The translations under genes and the position numbers were made by a program. Below are positions 4,445-37,590 of a stretch of DNA of 41,854 nt, in pieces. Every line of letters starts with the position of its first letter. The first letter of the stretch is position 1. Location of the stretch: IMG/VR virus record IMGVR_UViG_3300034198_025562, positions 1 to 41,854 of that record; one strand, given 5' to 3'. A model generated the notes under the pieces. It saw nothing but the letters and a program-made list of their open reading frames with translations, did no database searches and was not told the origin of the DNA. The DNA comes from a virus.

Positions 4445-4590
4445 TAGGACTTCTTTCGCCCACGGCTTTTCTTAATGACTGGCTCCTTGTCCACGTCAAT
4501 TAACTTTGGCCTTGGTGCCTCTCCGGAATCCTTCAGAACTCGGCATGGCATGCAGAAGCAGGGCTGCTGATGATAAAACTTATCAGCCAT
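4444..4590 (-). CDS. CFCMPC mini-protein downstream of portal
   Basis: A 48-residue protein starting at ATG 4590, inside the last codons of the portal gene in another frame, and ending in a TAA that overlaps the ATG of the HNH gene (TAATG). It has a striking CFCMPC cluster at residues 11-16 and a basic tail (KKSRGRKKS). Three close cysteines plus His7 might bind a metal. The ribosome site is weak, so translation probably depends on re-initiation after the portal stop at 4583-4585. Family unknown; judged real because it exactly fills the gap between two firm genes. Confidence 0.6.
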   Translation of the reverse strand: MADKFYHQQPCFCMPCRVLKDSGEAPRPKLIDVDKEPVIKKSRGRKKS

Positions 4591-6781
4591 TCGCTTCGCG
4601 GGATTCTACTGATCGCATTACCTTGTTTGACCATGCCTTGCCAGCATCTCCACCCCAGAGAGCCCAGGCGATTCTTCCAGCAGAAGGGAAACCCTTTTGC
4701 CCTGGTGCCCAGCCTTCACCCTTCTTGTCAACCTCGTGACGGGCAAGATACGAACGCATCTTTCTGACGCGAGCAACTGTCATCTTGTTGCCAACGAGCA
4801 TTCGTGCGGTTTGCTGGCCTGGGCCAATACCGCCACGACCAAACTCTCTTCTCCAGTCGAGACCCTTCTGGGCCTCAGACTTCACGCCAGAAGGAACATC
4901 GAGGTTTATCCCGTCGGCGTTCTCGATTTCAACCTCGGCAATGTTCTTCGCTGTTGGATGAGACGAAGAGTACGCGCGCGCCGCCTGTTCGTCAGTATCG
5001 TAGAATGCGACCACATTGTAGCCGTCTCTTTCAACCTTCTGAGACTCGTATCTCTTAAAGTGGAGGGCGGCGTCGTCCGGGAACGTGTTGCGAATTACAT
5101 CTGCGACAGGTATTCCGAAATCCCCAAGAAGATCCTTAATCAGATCAGGGCTTTCCTTTGAGCGTGTGATTGCAATGATTTCCACCCCTGCCTCGATGTA
5201 CATGTCAAGCTCATCAATTATGTGGGCGGGGCAGTTCTCGTCCAGGACATTGTCTGACTCAATAATCACAGCAGACTTCTTGCCGGATTGCTGGCGCGCG
5301 TTCATGTCGGGATTTGGCTTTGAATCTAGCTGATCCTTGCCTTGGTCCGGCTTGCTCGGCGGCTTCGGCGCGCCTGGAGAATCGTCCACTGCACCCTCAG
5401 GAGCGTCTGGAACGGTTGGTGGTGCCGGTTGGTCGGGGTCGCCAACCTTGCCCTTGAGGTAAAGCTCGTAGTACCTGAGTGGCATGTACCCAAGCGGGCT
5501 CGGAAGCCAGATCTCATTGCCAAGGTCGCCAACGGCATCCTGTCCTCGCTCCTTAAGGGCATCGTTGAGCCGCAGCCACGGAAGACCTGCAAGTGCGGCC
5601 TTGTAGTAGTCGGCGACTGCCTGGGCAGATTCCCTGCCAACGTCGGTGTAAACAAATCTTAGGTTTCTGTCATACAGCCAGACGATCTCGCGGGTAATAT
5701 AGTCCGCGATCAGCTCGCACAGCGGTGCGATCCCGTTATCGGCAGTGAACGCTGCCCCGTACTCAGACGTACTCTTGTTTACATCAAAGTTGAGTCCGAT
5801 GTCTTGCGGCTGAACGCCGAAGACTGCACAGATCTTTCTCGCGAGATAGATCTGCCACTCCATGAATTGCATGTCGCGATTCGATTGGGCCATTGGTATC
5901 CACTTGACACCCTTGCCCCCGCCCGTGATGGCGGTCTGGCTCTTGCCTGCAATCTCGCCTTCCCAGTATGACTTGAAGGCATCTACCTGGTCTGGGCGCA
6001 CGCCCTCGCCAAGATCAATAATGCCAGGGGGAGTCGCCTGTTCAACAATGTTGTTGTTGTACTTCGCCGCGCGAAGATCTGCCTCAATGGTTTCCGCTAG
6101 AACCTCGAGCGGGGAAAGCCCGAGTGGAGAATACGTCACCTTGTTGGCAACAATCACCACCATCTCTTCGTTCTTGTAGTCAGCAACGACCTTGCCGGTA
6201 TCGTCGTACTCAAAGTACCTTGGCTTCTTAAGGTTTGATCCGTCCCATGCTGGGTCAAACGCAATTCTTGAACCATCTTTTGGCCAAAGATTCTTAATCG
6301 GGTCGGTGCTCCTTCCGGCACGCGCCCCAACGGTCAGCTCCTTCTCAATGCACCCCTGGTCAAGAACAAGTATGTCCTCGACAACGGGCTCGATGAATGA
6401 GCGCCATGAATCCATTCTTGTGTTTGGATCACGAAGCAAGTGCTTAATCTTGTGCACAATTTCCACGTTTGCCTGGCTTTCGCCATCAATCGTGACAATA
6501 TCCCATCGCGCCCGGCTGATCTGCTGCCTACGAAGATTTATCGCAGAGCGAATCCACGGATTGTTACGCGACCACTTGCGCAGCATATTGACTGATCTTT
6601 TCTGAACCGTACTTTGCCCCGCCCCGCGCGCATAAGGCTGCGCGTCATAGTTAGGAATCAGAATTGCATCCTTTATTGCCTGAACATCTGCTTCAGCCTG
6701 AACATTTGCTGTGGAGCGACTTACGCGCTCCCAGGGCATCATCACCACGGGTTTTGCTCCTTCGGCTTTCTTGTTCTCCAT
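4583..6781 (-). CDS. HK97-type portal protein with HAD-like and C-terminal extension domains
   Basis: 732 residues, where HK97-family portals are commonly 400-520. Residues about 60-460 are a portal: RNNPWIRSAINLRR, the LGLSPLEV turn, NNNIVEQATPPGI, and FGVQPQDIG with a Thr/Ser-rich stretch after it. A Pro/Asp-rich linker (about 465-495) leads to a HAD-like domain (about 500-610) with motif-I-like IIESDNVLD, motif-II-like IIAIT and motif-IV-like AFYDTDE; the usual nucleophilic Asp is Glu, so activity is doubtful. The last 100 residues carry a Gly/Trp-rich domain (ARHEVDK, GGIGPGQQTAR, AWALWGGD) also found in other phage head proteins. The dodecameric portal forms the DNA gate at the capsid vertex. 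No clear ribosome site; translation is probably coupled to the overlapping upstream gene. Confidence 0.9.
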   Translation of the reverse strand: MENKKAEGAKPVVMMPWERVSRSTANVQAEADVQAIKDAILIPNYDAQPYARGAGQSTVQKRSVNMLRKWSRNNPWIRSAINLRRQQISRARWDIVTIDGESQANVEIVHKIKHLLRDPNTRMDSWRSFIEPVVEDILVLDQGCIEKELTVGARAGRSTDPIKNLWPKDGSRIAFDPAWDGSNLKKPRYFEYDDTGKVVADYKNEEMVVIVANKVTYSPLGLSPLEVLAETIEADLRAAKYNNNIVEQATPPGIIDLGEGVRPDQVDAFKSYWEGEIAGKSQTAITGGGKGVKWIPMAQSNRDMQFMEWQIYLARKICAVFGVQPQDIGLNFDVNKSTSEYGAAFTADNGIAPLCELIADYITREIVWLYDRNLRFVYTDVGRESAQAVADYYKAALAGLPWLRLNDALKERGQDAVGDLGNEIWLPSPLGYMPLRYYELYLKGKVGDPDQPAPPTVPDAPEGAVDDSPGAPKPPSKPDQGKDQLDSKPNPDMNARQQSGKKSAVIIESDNVLDENCPAHIIDELDMYIEAGVEIIAITRSKESPDLIKDLLGDFGIPVADVIRNTFPDDAALHFKRYESQKVERDGYNVVAFYDTDEQAARAYSSSHPTAKNIAEVEIENADGINLDVPSGVKSEAQKGLDWRREFGRGGIGPGQQTARMLVGNKMTVARVRKMRSYLARHEVDKKGEGWAPGQKGFPSAGRIAWALWGGDAGKAWSNKVMRSVESREANG

Positions 6782-7590: not shown

Positions 7591-7686
7591 ATGGTGCTTA
7601 TACGGGACTATCTACTGACACAGGTGTTTATCGGCCTGCCTGGCCGGTCTGCCTGTCCAACAAATCGCAGTAGCCGGGGGATCTGA
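7591..7686 (+). CDS. Possible 31-residue leader peptide
   Basis: ATG 7591 follows a strong purine run (GGGGGGA, 7 bases upstream) and the frame ends in TGA two bases before the TTG start of the capsid protease. The peptide begins MVLIRDYLLTQVFIGL and is hydrophobic in its first half. The same frame also extends back to ATG 7567 without a ribosome site. The short gap and the repeated GGGGGAT...TCTGAT ribosome-site sequence before both starts suggest translational coupling. No homology is recognisable and it may not be expressed as a protein. Confidence 0.35.
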   Translation: MVLIRDYLLTQVFIGLPGRSACPTNRSSRGI

Positions 7687-7688
7687 TT

Positions 7689-9572
7689 TTGGAATTCAAG
7701 ATTTACACCAATGCCTTGAAGGCCTACGAAAATGAGGGTGGCGAGCGATTTGTCACTGGGACCACCTCCTCCACGATCAGGGACCTTCACGGAGATGAGA
7801 TGTCCCTGAACGCGTTGAAGTCAATGGCCGATACGGCAAGACAGAATATGACTGTGTTTCTTAATCACAACTACAACGTTCCAGAAGATCTTTTTGGATC
7901 CGCAATGGACGCTCAGATTGTCAAGCGATTTGACTCCGAGACTGGGCAAGAGGTTTATGACCTGGACGTCAACATTCGTGTCGTAAACGAGGACGAAAAC
8001 CCAGAGGCACTTCGCGCATATCGCGCAATCAAGCGCGGCGTCAAGCTCGGACTATCCATTGGCGCACGAGTCGAGAAGGCAAGCCGCAAGGCGGCTACGG
8101 ACAGCCAGCCTGAGTCCATTGTTATCGAGAAGGTTCGCCTCATGGAGGCAAGCGTTGTAGGGATTCCGGCGAACCAGAGATCCTACTTGCACAATGCAAT
8201 TAAGAGCATCAAGGCTGCAGGTGTAAACCTCGACAGCATCGAGTCTGGTGAAGACTACGAAGAGATCAACAATAAGTTTGCAAAGGCCAGGGAGATTATT
8301 GATTCGATCAAGTCTCTTGAGATTGAGGGCGAGACGTCACCGGAAAACATTGCCCTTGCCGGAGCCCTTGCTGGCGTGCTTGCCGACTCTGCGGCCCTCT
8401 ATGTGAAGGCCCACGGAGCGCATTGGAACGTTGTTGGGCCAGCCTTTGCTCAGTATCATGAGCTTTTTGGCGAGATCTACGAGGATGTCTACGGCTCGCT
8501 AGATCCGCTCGCCGAGAACATTAGAAAGCTTAACGTCCCTGCCCCTGCAGAGATAAGAGAGCTTGCCCTCATGTCCTCGCCACAGCCAATTGCGGATGAC
8601 TACGACCCAGAAAGCTTGGCTTCTTCGGTCTATTCCGCAAACGAGGCCCTTATCAAGCGGATTCTCTCCGCATTTGACGTTGCTACCAGACAAAATCAGC
8701 AGGGGATTGCAAATTTCCTTGCTGAACGCCAGGACATGCACCAGAAATGGTCATGGCAGATTCGATCTTCGCTCGCCGAAGTCGAGACTGATACTGGTGC
8801 TGGTGGCATTGACGTCGAAGATACAGCAACGGAAGAGGCGTCATCCTCCGGCGTTGTGTCCAATGGATTTACGTCAAGCAAGAAGAATGAACAGGAGAGT
8901 TCAATGGAAATCGAAGAGAAGAAGACTCGCGTGACCGTTACGGTCAGCACGGATGGAGACGAGAGGCAGCAGGCCCCAGCAATGGAGCCAGTTGCTGAAG
9001 TTGATCAGGCCGAGGAGAAGGAAGAGGTTAAGGCCTCAGCCAGCCCAGAGGATACTGAGCCAGCCGTTAACGTAGAAGAGGATGCCGAGGCCGAAGAGTC
9101 CGAGAAGGACCCTGTGGTTGAGGCCCTTGAGGCGCTTGGCGCCACGCTAGTCGAGGCTGAAAAGTCTGCAGACGGCGAAAATGAATCATCCGTACAGCCG
9201 GAAACGGCAGAGGCGGAAGTTGTTGTCGAGGCCCCCGTTGAGGAGGCCCCGGCGGCGGAGAATGTCGAGGCTGACGAGGTTTCGTCTATTGACGAAGTCA
9301 AGTCGATCGCAAAGTCCGCTCTCGATGCAGCCAATGCTGCTCACGAGGAGGTCGCTGCCATTTCTGTGCGCGTGACCGAACTTGCTGAGGCGAAGGCCAA
9401 GGTCGAAGAGGATCTTTCGAAGGCGCTCGAACTCATTGAGCGCATCAGCGCTCTTGGGGTCGGCAGAAAGTCTTATGACCGTCCGCAGGAAGTTCGTGTA
9501 AAGTCACCGGAGTTTGCTCCGTGGCTAAGCCCATATGTACAGCGCGTCCTTGAGGCGCAAGACGAGGAGTAG
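7689..9572 (+). CDS. Capsid maturation protease fused to Dps/ferritin-like and scaffold domains
   Basis: 627 residues in three parts. Residues 1-170 are an HK97/XkdF-type prohead protease: His60 (FLNHNY), Ser123 (LGLSIGARV) and Glu153 (MEASVVGIPAN) form the expected His-Ser-Glu set. Residues about 215-360 are a four-helix Dps-like ferritin: AHGAHWNVVGPAF, YHELF, LDPLAENI. His245, His257, Asp272 and Glu276 have the same 12/15/4 spacing as the ferroxidase ligands of E. coli Dps (H51, H63, D78, E82). Residues 400-627 are acidic then coiled-coil, like a scaffolding protein. The TTG start is forced by an in-frame TAG at 7671 and follows GGGGGA. The major capsid protein gene follows after 3 bases. 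Confidence 0.85.
   Translation: MEFKIYTNALKAYENEGGERFVTGTTSSTIRDLHGDEMSLNALKSMADTARQNMTVFLNHNYNVPEDLFGSAMDAQIVKRFDSETGQEVYDLDVNIRVVNEDENPEALRAYRAIKRGVKLGLSIGARVEKASRKAATDSQPESIVIEKVRLMEASVVGIPANQRSYLHNAIKSIKAAGVNLDSIESGEDYEEINNKFAKAREIIDSIKSLEIEGETSPENIALAGALAGVLADSAALYVKAHGAHWNVVGPAFAQYHELFGEIYEDVYGSLDPLAENIRKLNVPAPAEIRELALMSSPQPIADDYDPESLASSVYSANEALIKRILSAFDVATRQNQQGIANFLAERQDMHQKWSWQIRSSLAEVETDTGAGGIDVEDTATEEASSSGVVSNGFTSSKKNEQESSMEIEEKKTRVTVTVSTDGDERQQAPAMEPVAEVDQAEEKEEVKASASPEDTEPAVNVEEDAEAEESEKDPVVEALEALGATLVEAEKSADGENESSVQPETAEAEVVVEAPVEEAPAAENVEADEVSSIDEVKSIAKSALDAANAAHEEVAAISVRVTELAEAKAKVEEDLSKALELIERISALGVGRKSYDRPQEVRVKSPEFAPWLSPYVQRVLEAQDEE
8904..9572 (+). CDS. Internal-start scaffolding protein (in-frame with protease)
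   Basis: ATG 8904 lies in frame at residue 406 of the protease fusion and is preceded by AGGAGAG at 8893-8899, only 4 bases away, one of the best ribosome sites in the window. The 222-residue product (MEIEEKK...) is acidic, with a long coiled coil near its end. Lambda makes its scaffold Nu3 in just this way from within the protease gene C. Separate production would supply scaffold in excess over protease. The internal initiation is predicted from sequence only. Confidence 0.5.
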   Translation: MEIEEKKTRVTVTVSTDGDERQQAPAMEPVAEVDQAEEKEEVKASASPEDTEPAVNVEEDAEAEESEKDPVVEALEALGATLVEAEKSADGENESSVQPETAEAEVVVEAPVEEAPAAENVEADEVSSIDEVKSIAKSALDAANAAHEEVAAISVRVTELAEAKAKVEEDLSKALELIERISALGVGRKSYDRPQEVRVKSPEFAPWLSPYVQRVLEAQDEE

Positions 9573-9575
9573 AAA

Positions 9576-10811
9576 ATGTCTGAGATACGAGAGAAGCTAC
9601 AGGACGTCGAGAAGGGTCTAAACTCCCTTAACGACGGCCACATCGGTCGAGACATCGATGTAGATAAGAAGTCATCGTTTGACCCAGCCGAGGCATATGC
9701 CGTTCAGCGCGAGCTTCGCAAGAAGTTCTCAAAGCTTTCGGCAACTGAACTCAACGAGATGCTTGATGTTCAGGCTTCGACACAGGCAGGCAAGCAGGCC
9801 GATTCGGCCGTGCTTAACCAGCTTGCGATGTCAAACCCACAGATTGCAAAGGCACTTGACAGCAGCAGCGGTTCGGCGCTTATCCGCCAGGACCTCGAGC
9901 CAATCCTTTACAGCCTGTTCGTGAAGAAGTTCCCATTCTTTGAGCGCATCCGCAAGGAGCCTGCAAACGGCCTCGTGCACGCGTTCAACCAGCAGACGGC
10001 TTACGGTGACGCAGTCTTCCAGACTGAAACTGGCACTGTGACCGACGATAACGCGACGTATTCACGCCAGACGACCAACGTGGCCGTTCTTGCGACACGC
10101 CGTGGTATCACGCTCAAGAATCAGTTCGCGCTTGGTCAGGGCGGCTCGCCGTTCAATGGCCTTTCGCAGGAGCTTGGCAGCGGCGTGACCGGCATTGCCC
10201 ACAAGCTTCAGAAGACCCTGTTCCAGGGCAACGCAACGGTTACGACAGGTGCTACCTCAACAACCGAGCTTGGTGCTTATGATGCCAACTCGTTTGACGG
10301 GCTTCGCAAGCTGCTCGGGTCCGCTGCAGCTGCTGGTAACGGCATTGTTGGCAAGGGGACGGCTTCATACCTGTCCACCATCAACACCGCAGTTGCTGGC
10401 GTTCTGGACAACGGTGGCGCTCCGTCGGCCATCGTCTGCACCCCAACCGACTACGCTGGTCTTGTGAACGAGCTTACAAACCTCGTTCGTTACAATGCAC
10501 CTTCGCAGACGGATCAGGCTGCTGGCGCAACCTTCGGTTCAGTAGTTACGGCAGCTGGCAACTTGCCAATCCTTGCCGTTCCTGGTGATGCCATCGGTGG
10601 ATACGCAATCTCCGGAACCAGCTACCGCGATATGTACGTGGTAGACGAGGCCGGTTGGTCAATGCCATATCTTGGCTCTGACTCAATCACGACCCTCGAG
10701 ATTCCAATCGGCGTGAACGGTGCCCTTACGCGCCTCTACATCATGTATGTGATGTTCGGGTTTGCCAACAAGGCACCTCAGTTCCAGTCAAAGATTCGCG
10801 TAACAGCCTAA
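9576..10811 (+). CDS. Major capsid protein, HK97 fold
   Basis: 411 residues directly downstream of the protease/scaffold, with a strong ribosome site (GAGGAGTAGAAA). The N-terminal 95 residues are helical and charged, like a delta/scaffold segment that could be removed by the protease. The core from about residue 105 (LIRQDLEPILYSLFVKKFPFF, then the E-loop-like TETGTVTDDNATYSRQTT and the P-domain) fits HK97-fold capsid proteins of actinophages. The C-terminal strand reads TRLYIMYVMFGFANKAPQFQSKIRV. It forms the capsid shell. Identification rests on size, position and fold pattern rather than on a catalytic motif. Confidence 0.85.
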   Translation: MSEIREKLQDVEKGLNSLNDGHIGRDIDVDKKSSFDPAEAYAVQRELRKKFSKLSATELNEMLDVQASTQAGKQADSAVLNQLAMSNPQIAKALDSSSGSALIRQDLEPILYSLFVKKFPFFERIRKEPANGLVHAFNQQTAYGDAVFQTETGTVTDDNATYSRQTTNVAVLATRRGITLKNQFALGQGGSPFNGLSQELGSGVTGIAHKLQKTLFQGNATVTTGATSTTELGAYDANSFDGLRKLLGSAAAAGNGIVGKGTASYLSTINTAVAGVLDNGGAPSAIVCTPTDYAGLVNELTNLVRYNAPSQTDQAAGATFGSVVTAAGNLPILAVPGDAIGGYAISGTSYRDMYVVDEAGWSMPYLGSDSITTLEIPIGVNGALTRLYIMYVMFGFANKAPQFQSKIRVTA

Positions 10812-10826
10812 TAGTAAGTGCCAAAT

Positions 10827-10850
10827 GGGCCCCAGGGAAACCTGGGGCCC
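10827..10850 (+). terminator. Perfect 10-bp hairpin with GAAA loop after capsid gene
   Basis: GGGCCCCAGG and CCTGGGGCCC pair perfectly around a GAAA (GNRA) tetraloop, 16 bases after the capsid stop. No T-run follows (AAGAGG), so a classic intrinsic terminator is unlikely; it may protect the 3' end of the abundant capsid message or attenuate transcription. Confidence 0.6.
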
Positions 10851-10872
10851 AAGAGGCTAGAGGGAGCATCAA

Positions 10873-11190
10873 ATGTTTGAAGATAAGAAGGAAGCTCCTG
10901 TAGTAGATTCATCTGCAGTTGCCAAGAAGGCCGTTACGGCGGCAAAGGCGGCAGTTGCCGACGACCAGATTGTCAAGGTAAGAACTAATGACGGTCTTTC
11001 CTCAATCGTTTTTGGGGACGGGACCTTTGCTAGATTCCACCTCAGCGTTGCCAACATTAAGGCGAAGTACCTCGTTCAGGCAGTAGCACAGGGCTGCACG
11101 GTTGAAGCCGACGCCCCTTCGCCAAAGCCAGACGAGCTCACCGCAGCGCAAAAGGCTGAACTGGAGAAGGTCTTCGGCAAGTCCGAGTAA
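10873..11190 (+). CDS. Small head-associated protein, unknown
   Basis: 105 residues with ribosome site GAGGGAGC before ATG 10873. The first 35 residues are Ala/Lys-rich (AVAKKAVTAAKAAVA), followed by a small beta segment (IVKVRTNDGLSSIVFGDGTFARF) and a helical end (TAAQKAELEKVFGK). Located between the capsid gene and the head-tail adaptor and flanked by two strong hairpins, so it is expressed as its own segment of the head operon. A decoration or head-completion protein is possible; no family is recognised. Confidence 0.6.
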   Translation: MFEDKKEAPVVDSSAVAKKAVTAAKAAVADDQIVKVRTNDGLSSIVFGDGTFARFHLSVANIKAKYLVQAVAQGCTVEADAPSPKPDELTAAQKAELEKVFGKSE

Positions 11191-11207
11191 TCAAACTCAG
11201 TAGCTGT

Positions 11208-11252
11208 AATGGGGCTCGCAGGACCTAATTTAGGTGATTTGCGGGCCCCATT
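11208..11252 (+). terminator. 13-bp stem-loop before head-tail adaptor gene
   Basis: AATGGGGCTCGCA pairs with TGCGGGCCCCATT (12 Watson-Crick pairs plus one T-G) around a 19-base loop that can itself fold (ACCTAA/TTAGGT). Only GCTTTAGG follows, so termination is probably partial. It lies 17 bases upstream of ATG 11269 and could lower expression of the adaptor relative to the capsid. Confidence 0.6.
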
Positions 11253-11268
11253 GCTTTAGGATGTGAAC

Positions 11269-12183
11269 ATGATAAAAGTCACCGTCAACCTCAGCGACCC
11301 AGCCTCTTCGGCAGCCTCCTACACCCATATTCAGATTGGCAGGGCAGCAAACGAGGCAGACGCAAACGCTCAAACTGGAACCTTTTCAAATCTCGGAAGC
11401 ACGGCTGCAATTGACCCCTACGTCGGCATATACCACTACAACGACACCTCCGCCCCCGTTGGGTACTGGTATGCATATCGCCTATTTAGCTCATCGGCGA
11501 GCAGCGCATGGTCCACAGCCTTCCAGGGCAAAGAGCTTGGGTATCTAACCGTCTCAGAGTTCAGGGATTATGAGCTTGGGGCTATATCCCTTCCTGACGG
11601 AAGCGAGTCGACTGACAATCGCCTTGAGCGCCTGATAGCCGTCGCCTCCTCGATGGTTGACAGCTACTGCGGAATAACATTTCAATACAAGGAGTCCACG
11701 GAGCAACACAGCTGGAACCAGAACTCAAGAAGGGTATACCCATACAACAACCCAATCATCAGCATCGACTCGGTTGAGGTTTTTGTAAGCAATCAGCAGA
11801 AGGCCACGTTTAACCTAAGCGACCTATTTATCAACACATCGCAGAACTACATTGAGGTCACCAGTCTTGCAAACGTGACCTATTCTCTTTTCCCCGCAAT
11901 TGTTGCCCTCGGCCTAATCCAACCAGTTGCGAGAATTACCTACAAGCACGGATACAAGAAGCCTCCTCACGAGATAAAGGACGCGACAGCAATGATTGCA
12001 ATTGACCTTGCCGCTAGAGATTCCCTCTATCAGACCGGCATGGGGCTTCTTACCAAGCTTACCGTGGGCGACACGACCATGGAGAGACTGCCCCAGGTGG
12101 TCGGCGGTCGCTACTCGGCCTTGGCAATACCGCCAACTGCAGCCGCAATCCTTGACCAATACATCTCGGTATCCCTCAGATGA
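11269..12183 (+). CDS. Head-tail adaptor with N-terminal FN3-like domain
   Basis: About 304 residues. The C-terminal part (from about residue 95: LTVSEFRDYELG, RLERLIAVASSMVDSYCGITF, then ARITYKHGYKKPP and a final helical region) matches the gp6/gp15-like connector family, which forms the ring below the portal. The first 90 residues are beta-rich with YTHIQIGRA and GYWYAYRLF, like a fibronectin-III/Ig domain, an addition that standard adaptors lack. ATG 11269 is preferred because AGGA lies 8 bases upstream; GTG 11263 is an in-frame alternative. The next gene overlaps its stop by 4 bases. Confidence 0.7.
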   Translation: MIKVTVNLSDPASSAASYTHIQIGRAANEADANAQTGTFSNLGSTAAIDPYVGIYHYNDTSAPVGYWYAYRLFSSSASSAWSTAFQGKELGYLTVSEFRDYELGAISLPDGSESTDNRLERLIAVASSMVDSYCGITFQYKESTEQHSWNQNSRRVYPYNNPIISIDSVEVFVSNQQKATFNLSDLFINTSQNYIEVTSLANVTYSLFPAIVALGLIQPVARITYKHGYKKPPHEIKDATAMIAIDLAARDSLYQTGMGLLTKLTVGDTTMERLPQVVGGRYSALAIPPTAAAILDQYISVSLR

Positions 12184-12515
12184 TCCCAGGAGCCATGGCT
12201 CGGGTCACGCTGAAGAGGAAGGGGACTGCCAGCCAGGCGGCAGACGGTACGCCGATTACCACTGACGAGATCATATGGGTCAAGAACTGCCACTACCAGT
12301 CGCTCCGTGAGGATGGCAGCCGAGATAACGCAACCGCAACCGGACCGACCTCGCGACAGGTGTATAGGTTTTGGACTCCCTATCTTGAGGGAAGAGAAAA
12401 GCCAAAAGTCAACGACAGGCTGGAAACAAATGGCCTCGAGTTCCGAGTCATTGGACTGGACTTCGAGGCCATTCGTCATCACCTGCTTCTTAGGGCAGAG
12501 AGGCTTGAGCGTTAA
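12180..12515 (+). CDS. Head closure / head-tail joining protein
   Basis: 111 residues with beta-rich layout: ARVTLKRKGTA, a loop, RQVYRFWTPYLEGREKPKVNDRL, then EFRVIGLD. This is the pattern of SPP1 gp16-like stopper proteins (they close the head exit channel after packaging), which follow the adaptor in many siphophages. ATG 12180 overlaps the adaptor stop (ATGA); a second ATG at 12195 has AGGAG three bases upstream. Its TAA shares the TTAA with the stop of the opposite-strand metallophosphoesterase gene, so the two operons converge with no spacer. Confidence 0.65.
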   Translation: MIPGAMARVTLKRKGTASQAADGTPITTDEIIWVKNCHYQSLREDGSRDNATATGPTSRQVYRFWTPYLEGREKPKVNDRLETNGLEFRVIGLDFEAIRHHLLLRAERLER

Positions 12516-35859: not shown

Positions 35860-36054
35860 CTAATCTTCGATTGAAATCCTCAATGGCATGGTTACTGCCC
35901 ATGCAATCGTAAGGACCAGCAGGGTTCCGCCGACGAAGTTTCGTGTCTCTCCATCTGGCAACACAATCCAGCCGACCATAAGACCAAATACTGTCCAAGA
36001 TTGGGAAACGAGGTCATTGATAACGGCTTGGGCTATTGACTTCCATCTATTCAT
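35860..36054 (-). CDS. Small two-helix membrane protein
   Basis: 64 residues with two predicted membrane helices: about 17-33 ([17 protein letters not shown]) and about 41-56 ([16 protein letters not shown]), joined by a short charged loop (PDGETRNF). Size and layout resemble class II holins or holin-like accessory proteins. AGGAG precedes ATG 36054, which overlaps the stop of the secreted protein gene by 8 bases. Together with the XhlA-like protein and the secreted protein it forms a three-gene envelope cassette separate from the endolysin-holin pair. Confidence 0.6.
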
Positions 36055-37405
36055 TTTCTTTTCTCCTGCCCAGTTGGGCTTCTACGCTTCTTGCAGCTGG
36101 TCCTTTTGGACCCTTTCCTCCACCGCCGCCACCCGTGGGCCCGCTTGAGCCCCCGCCTGACGACCTAGCGATAGCAGCAGCACTTGCTGCAGCCTGTGCA
36201 ACCTGCGTCAAGATGATCGCAGGCAATACAGTTTCTCTTGCTGATTCCTTGTCCTCTTGAGATATATCGTTCCCTAGGTTTGCTATTGGCGCAAGTGCCT
36301 CACCAACTGCCTCTGCAGCGGCATCAGCAACAGCACCTACGGCCTCAGAGACTGTTTCTACGGCGGCACCTACCGCCTCGGAAACCGCTTCTGCAGCAGC
36401 ACCTACGGCTTGCTCAACCGCAGCAGCAACCTCACCTAGATCTGGCAGAGGGGGCTGTGTTGGCTCAGGAGAAGGAACAGCAGTGGGATCAGGAGAAGGG
36501 GCAGGTTCCGGCGAATCAGTTGGCTCCACGGTTCCTTCGGGCGTCGGCTCTGGTGTGGCAGTCGGGTCTGGTGTCGGCTCATTGGTTACCTCCGGGCTTG
36601 GAGTCGGCTCTTCAGTCGGCTCAGGGCTTGCGGTTGGATCTGGGGTTGGATCTGGAGTTGATTCCGGGCTAGGTGATGGCAATGGAGAAGGGCTCGGGGA
36701 AGGCTCTATAGAAGGCTCTGGCGTGGGGGTAGGAGCCACGCTAGGGCTTGGGGAAGGCGGTTCTGGGGTAGGAGAAGGTGTCGGCTCAGGAGTCGGCTCG
36801 GGGCTTGGTTCCGGAGTTGGCTCTGGGGTCGGCTCTGGGGTCGGCTCAGGGGTGGGCTGTGGCGTTGGCAAAATAGAAGGAATTGCAGTCGGCTCAACCG
36901 TGGGCGGGTTAGGGTCACGCAAAAGCGCAGTGGTGGTCAAGAGTTGGTAGGAGCCGCCTACAGGGAATGGGTCCTGCGGCCAGAGGCATGATCCGTCGTG
37001 ACAGGTAAAGCGTCCAGCCCGCAGCCGATAGACGCCAGCCTGGAGCTCCACGCTGATGTAGGAGTGCCAAGACTGCCCGTTGGTTCGGGGGTCATCGTCG
37101 TTCACCGTCATCAACGCACCAGTTGCATCGTAAAGCCAGAGTGCAGAGTCAGTAAAGTTTCCGCCGTCCTGAGTCGCAGCGCACCAAAAACTTGCAGTGT
37201 CGTTGCAAAGGTCTGTTTCGGCAGAAAAAACAGACGGCACGTCAATGACGACAAAGTAGTCGCCAGTCTCGGTCACAATTGTGCTGTAGGGGTATCCAGC
37301 GCCGTCGTAGCCATCTGCCCCGTAAACCGGCGAGGAAACAATGGAGAAAACTATCGTGGAGGCAATGAGCCACAGGGTGGCGGCGATAACAATTGCTCTA
37401 TGCAT
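36047..37405 (-). CDS. Secreted PPC-domain protein with Pro/Thr/Glu repeat stalk
   Basis: 452 residues. The N-terminal 28 residues are a signal peptide or anchor ([16 protein letters not shown]... ending SSPVYG-ADG). Residues about 30-165 resemble a bacterial pre-peptidase C-terminal (PPC) beta-sandwich: [40 protein letters not shown], with four Cys that could form disulphides outside the cell. Residues about 175-330 are PEPTPEPTP-type repeats, a rigid extended stalk. An Ala-rich helical region (about 330-400) and a Gly-rich basic end follow. ATG 37405 is chosen because AGGGAAAG precedes it and it overlaps the upstream TAA (TAATG). An exported cell-surface or wall-spanning protein seems likely; function unknown. 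Confidence 0.7.
36440..36905 (-). repeat. Pro-Thr/Ser-Glu-Pro coding repeat
   Basis: Imperfect tandem repeats of 6 to 12 bases coding for EPTP and EPSP units in the secreted protein. The opposite strand reads as Gly/Ser/Val repeats and gives a false open frame. Confidence 0.8.
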
Positions 37406-37590
37406 TACTTTCCCTGTCCGGAAAGCCAAGCCATAATTCCGCTAATACCCGTAAGGCCAAGAATGCCAATAACAAACTTTGCAAGGCGGAAGGCGCCGCG
37501 TGTCTCAGCCATCTCTACGCGCATAGCAGAAAGTTCTTCCTCAATCTTGTCAAGGCGATCAATAATTTGCTGAACGTTGCTCGCAGTCAC
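37405..37590 (-). CDS. XhlA-like small membrane protein
   Basis: 61 residues, start GTG 37590 with GAGGTG 5 bases upstream. A coiled-coil N-terminal half ([21 protein letters not shown]) is followed by one membrane helix (about 37-56, [21 protein letters not shown]). This matches XhlA/hemolysin-type proteins that help holins or sit in the phage-host membrane. It is first in the envelope cassette and overlaps the secreted protein gene (TAATG). Confidence 0.6.

Follow-up and report, generated by a model that had tools for sequence, protein, structure and literature searches.

A Dps mini-ferritin domain fused between prohead protease and scaffold in a phage head gene, and recurrence of this fusion with other types of head protease

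The phage systems closest to the locus described here combine protease and scaffold: lambda C/Nu3 is a two-product protease/scaffold gene, and proteases of the S78/HK97 type are known with a scaffold tail. Dps proteins (mini-ferritins) assemble as 12-mers, iron site 1 of the Pseudomonas aeruginosa protein (PaDps) being composed of H37, D64 and E68 (PMC10002758). Stand-alone Dps proteins are known from phages, i.e., Gratiaviridae, Lactobacillus phages and SU10 (PMC8008677, PMC4281155), which were not reported to be protease-fused; in case of SU10, MS detected the protein in a phage concentrate prepared without CsCl purification (PMC4281155). Protection of the host against ROS was proposed by the respective authors for phage Dps/ferritin (PMC8008677, PMC6802176). 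Encapsulins are host compartments in which an HK97-fold shell surrounds a ferritin-like, peptide-targeted cargo (PMC11202242). A fusion of Dps with a prohead protease was not found in the literature searched (open-licence papers only), in agreement with the initial annotation of the present sequence, which had named no precedent.

The fusion gene analyzed here is located at 7689-9572 (+ strand) of the window, i.e., the entire 41,854-nt stretch of IMG/VR virus record IMGVR_UViG_3300034198_025562, and was recognized from its open reading frame as well as Pfam and PHROG matches. It has a TTG start, preceded by a Shine-Dalgarno-like GGGGGA (7676-7681) for the long product, followed by 627 open codons and a stop at 9572. 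The 627-aa protein consists of (i) an S78-type prohead protease domain (residues 1-177; 7689-8219), (ii) a first acidic linker (residues 178-216; 8220-8336), (iii) a Dps domain (residues 217-362; 8337-8774), (iv) a second acidic linker (residues 363-405; 8775-8903), and (v) a scaffold-like acidic tail of 222 aa (residues 406-627; 8904-9572), all encoded on the + strand. This fusion is real, conserved and recurrent, and apparently undescribed, though unremarked fused sequences sit in databases. The first linker terminates in a conserved K-x-x-E-(V/I)-E-G-(Q/E) motif just ahead of Dps, which may be cut by a protease or mark a recombination junction. The K-x-x-E-(V/I)-E-G-Q form of this motif is retained even in relatives without Dps.

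The capsid protease had initially been proposed from His60, Ser123 and Glu153 (codons at 7866-7868, 8055-8057 and 8145-8147), and these residues are correctly placed and invariant in 24 aligned relatives. Pfam Peptidase_S78 matches residues 103-173 (E = 1.3e-6; 29.1 bits versus a gathering score of 21), and a PHROGs search also returned head maturation protease families. The AlphaFold2 model of this domain has a pLDDT of 82, only one out of five models being good, and its comparison with the PDB yielded no match at E ≤ 0.001, SSB-like noise aside. Since the predicted model has no confident solved match, the family assignment is based on profiles and residues.

Assignment of the central domain to Dps is supported by matches to Pfam Ferritin (residues 226-365, E = 1.1e-14) and PHROG 3636 (phage Dps; residues 224-362, E = 9e-24), as well as by a PDB sequence search that retrieved PaDps with a gapless alignment across 145 residues (E = 9e-21). 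The AlphaFold2 model of residues 217-362, calculated with 24 relatives, displays the four-helix bundle of Dps including its short BC helix (pLDDT 89.2). In a Foldseek search with this model, Dps structures rank first (best PDB match 8ff9, TM 0.87), so that the fold anticipated in the initial annotation is indeed the one predicted.

The four ligand residues named there, H245, H257, D272 and E276 (8421-8423, 8457-8459, 8502-8504 and 8514-8516), and likewise G261 (8469-8471) align without gaps to H37, H49, D64, E68 and E53 of PaDps. Iron site 1, with the histidine contributed by one subunit and aspartate plus glutamate by the other, is by alignment complete here, since H245, D272 and E276 correspond to the three site-1 ligands of PaDps. 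At the second site H257 is present and the acidic ligand position is occupied by Gly261, i.e., four of the five conventional ligands are kept. In E. coli numbering the Gly261 position equals D67; the PaDps alignment is independent of this numbering. Gly261 does not exclude Dps membership, since the solved Dps proteins of Listeria, Helicobacter and Agrobacterium contain iron at site 1 only (PMC10002758); a complete second iron site is common, not universal, in Dps.

Among 131 Dps domains of phages, with a median pairwise identity of 45 %, H245, H257, D272, E276 and the adjacent W246 are retained without exception (131/131). Some of these columns are biased, since the search seeds contain HWNV (H51 position in E. 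coli numbering) and E82 is covered by a seed of the first Dps scan; none of the seeds behind the Dps alignments includes the positions of H257 (H63) and D272 (D78). Position 261 is free in the same set (G, E, Q, S, A, L, K or N). Thus, the description of the domain as apparently intact holds for site 1 and H257 and fails for the fifth ligand. Part of the ligand conservation could stem from the dimer interface. The dN/dS of the Dps domain is about 0.04-0.14 (median 0.08), demonstrating strong purifying selection wherever Dps is present, and conservation of site 1 points to a predicted iron and peroxide chemistry. In comparison to Dps mini-ferritins (PA0962, PDB 8ff9), the domain thus shares the fold, the site-1 H/D/E ligands, the second histidine and the tryptophan, but is embedded between two other domains, carries glycine at the E53-equivalent position, is acidic and belongs to a phage-specific clade.

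The domain has a pI of 4.8 (phage Dps fusions, median pI 4.45-4.66), no Lys-rich tail and acidic linkers on either side. This charge argues against DNA condensation, as judged from composition, and weakens the DNA binding that had initially been considered. A DNA-condensing or DNA-cleaving internal protein would suit the name and family of Dps and the in vitro DNA cleavage by its closest solved homologue, PaDps, as 12-mer (PMC10002758), but is very improbable for a protein of such acidity.

The scaffold-like tail (pI 4.15), initially read as a scaffold tail, is preceded by an internal Shine-Dalgarno sequence AGGAG (8893-8897), located 6 nt ahead of an in-frame ATG at 8904. Shine-Dalgarno plus ATG/GTG are found at the tail start in 41 of 43 relatives, though the flanking amino acids differ; as background, a strong Shine-Dalgarno sequence precedes 10.7 % of the in-frame ATG/GTG codons of these genes taken together, a figure that counts the scaffold starts themselves. 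From this conserved internal ribosome-binding site and start a second, shorter product is deduced: starting at ATG 8904, ribosomes probably produce the tail by itself as well, giving a short scaffold beside the long protease-Dps-scaffold protein, and Dps would then occur in the long form only. The gene resembles lambda C/Nu3 and S78/HK97-type proteases with a scaffold tail in its H/S/E residues and its location before the capsid gene, and lambda C/Nu3 also in the in-frame internal scaffold start with ribosome-binding site. Unlike in these systems, a folded enzyme domain and exchangeable modules are inserted between protease and scaffold.

The major capsid protein (9576-10811, + strand; PHROG 752/212) is encoded immediately downstream of the protease gene. 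The protease-capsid-adaptor island (7689-12515, + strand) diverges from the portal gene (4583-6781, - strand; PHROG 2662/12), and this divergent orientation of portal and protease gene is alike in all 64 window-type loci showing portal and capsid genes (64/64). Searches against cultured phages yielded no match for the capsid protein and no fusion for the full 627-aa protein. The C-terminus of the portal, which in phage portals faces the head interior, contains a PHROG 2859 module (portal residues 594-727; 4601-5002, - strand) that also occurs in four Dps-protease fusions (L114, L194, L212 and L255). By eye only, a stretch ahead of this module looks HAD-like. Further away, 36047-37429 (- strand) encodes a secreted-looking protein with extended Pro-Thr/Pro-Glu repeats, which phages do not usually have. 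The neighbourhood is not that of an encapsulin shell gene, being formed by a phage major capsid protein (PHROG 752) and a portal within a tailed-phage genome. Encapsulins may nevertheless serve as an analogy, though only as such, since an HK97-fold shell around a ferritin-like protein is also proposed here; the cargo would, however, be targeted by fusion to protease/scaffold rather than by peptide and enter a DNA-filled capsid.

Among close relatives, the segment from protease to tail is mosaic, which had not been part of the initial annotation, nor had the module pool common to portal C-termini or the probable separate synthesis of the tail. The modules comprise Dps, an Hva1-Tudor-like domain (Pfam PF11160) and a WDGAAA...GSYKLPFAD-type module; they are inserted at the position of the first linker and, as a second site, at that of the second linker, some relatives having a second, similar-looking module after Dps. 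On the protease tree, the presence of Dps changes 9 times, every change being forced by well-supported branches, i.e., close relatives have acquired or lost the module at least 9 times. Two relatives with and without Dps (L010 and L057, respectively) have identical protease sequences, and in the pair L001/L003 proteases are 91 % identical versus 55 % for Dps, indicating exchange of the module; some protease identities of 34 % represent one-residue register errors and were disregarded. Dps is missing from 17 of 41 close relatives and hence dispensable.

Two relatives (L067, L071) possess a truncated Dps, consisting of the C-terminal helices only, without ligands and in frame between protease and scaffold, and a third (L043) shows an apparent deletion scar in place of Dps. 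L075 also has a truncated Dps. Such remnants would be in accord with a decaying module or an assembly artefact also in the window; this has next to no probability and is contradicted for the window copy by the dN/dS of about 0.08, the invariant ligands and the many independent contigs. An assembly artefact is specifically countered by a near-identical copy of the fusion and dozens of diverged copies on other contigs. The dispensability of Dps also bears on a purely structural role, in which the dimer/dodecamer geometry would oligomerize or nucleate the protease-scaffold core without redox function. The 12-mers formed by Dps proteins (PMC10002758), the position between protease and scaffold and the loss of the fifth ligand would be compatible with such a role, but close relatives assemble without any Dps, and site-1 ligands and adjacent Trp are invariant in the 131 sequences despite their divergence; this explanation is therefore regarded as improbable.

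Wider scans, seeded on Dps alone rather than on proteases, revealed many further phage Dps domains, forming a clade apart from cellular Dps. Therein, a prohead protease of one of about seven types is fused to Dps in about 70 distinct ORFs, extending the fusion to other phages as the initial annotation had suggested looking for. Dps is C-terminal in six of these types, i.e., the window type, PHROG 9427, PHROG 2753 (L119), PHROG 3270 (L109, L111), XkdF-type S78_2 (L133) and portal-protease polyproteins (L125, L154, L193); S78 with DUF6321 (L128, L156) is among the seven types. Dps is N-terminal to the protease in HAD-Dps-S78 proteins and a related group (L114, L122, L127, L194, L212), and this reversed domain order implies more than one fusion event. 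In three of the latter (L122, L127, L194), a HAD-type phosphatase domain (polynucleotide-kinase-like), Dps and S78 protease reside in one protein. The Dps tree requires about 9 changes between fused and alone, and its strong branches compel the stand-alone label to change at least 5 times. Wherever a fusion partner could be named, it was a prohead protease (in three cases as portal-protease polyprotein), several longer Dps ORFs having no named partner; this skew is not a seed effect, since the later scans were seeded on Dps. BFVD contains entries annotated as 'Prohead protease' (333-763 aa) with the same fold. In three further ORFs (L209, L226, L241), Dps is N-terminal to a protein with a recurring module type YRRGAGAYSSSHRPGKTRDQWAMARVNAYL, with no protease detected. 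One candidate fusion (L251) was dropped, its upstream part not being a protease.

An advantage of residence inside the head best accounts for the skew towards prohead proteases. That Dps became joined more than once to proteins of the head interior, together with a dN/dS near 0.08, points to Dps as capsid cargo; the same reading is favoured by the PHROG 2859 module common to several fusions and the portal C-terminus, and by stand-alone Dps genes adjoining portal-type genes or XkdF-type proteases. Its delivery to the prohead interior, already envisaged in the initial annotation, is strengthened by the convergent fusions to several protease types. The best explanation, to which we assign a probability of roughly 0.6, comprises two products and Dps as prohead-interior cargo with an iron/peroxide role. 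Accordingly worded as a model, the gene would yield a minor long protease-Dps-scaffold protein plus scaffold alone from the internal start; the scaffold part would carry the long form into the prohead, as in protease-scaffold fusions of other phages, with the Dps domain riding along as interior cargo module. There, Dps would bind iron at site 1 via H245 and D272 plus E276 of the partner subunit, with H257 nearby, and the chemistry of the bound iron would remove Fe(II) and peroxide. This may shield the genome after packaging or on entry or, should the module leave the capsid together with the DNA, the infected cell. Interior location, oligomerization, ferroxidase chemistry, benefit and the two products are what we infer.

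The recurrence suggests that taking such an enzyme into the head is common to many phages. One may speculate, somewhat more tentatively, that tailed phages possess an exchangeable 'cargo slot' (protease/scaffold gap and portal C-terminus) for loading enzymes including an active mini-ferritin; the virion would thereby become a compartment for iron and peroxide resembling an encapsulin, either shielding its DNA or passing the enzyme on to the next host. Were this so, enzymes would enter phage heads by a general route, via capsid proteases and scaffolds, and a ferritin-like cargo inside an HK97-fold shell would be a parallel to encapsulins. One could then also test concretely whether virions bring their own protection from oxidative damage, a question relevant to how phages survive in sunlit water and to the 'ferrojan horse' idea, which concerns iron in virions; moreover, nature would provide a design by which proteins can be packed into capsids.

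Many phage Dps genes are stand-alone, and some adjoin replication genes, such that a cytosolic role of phage Dps probably exists too and the basic Dps function need not require encapsidation. For the fusion, a cytosolic auxiliary would mean that Dps shields the host from peroxide/iron, fusion to the protease providing strong late expression and encapsidation being incidental. Stand-alone Dps of the same clade is common, in several phages by replication genes, and host ROS protection was proposed for phage Dps/ferritin (PMC8008677, PMC6802176). The named partners, however, are prohead proteases of seven types (three being portal-protease polyproteins), whereas random late-gene fusion would also hit tail, lysis and capsid genes, rendering this explanation unlikely, albeit the most serious competitor of interior cargo. 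Some further stand-alone Dps genes neighbour an XkdF-type protease. When proteases were sought in the vicinity of stand-alone Dps with a single sequence as query, five cases only were retrieved, indicating that stand-alone Dps is not generally protease-adjacent. Several stand-alone Dps genes directly follow a portal-type gene (one confirmed by profile), and in the confirmed case Dps is succeeded by an ADP-ribosyltransferase-bearing ORF. This 1660-aa ORF (L188:5424-10403), with portal and Dps immediately before it, harbours an ADP-ribosyltransferase exoenzyme domain and probably represents another head-carried enzyme.
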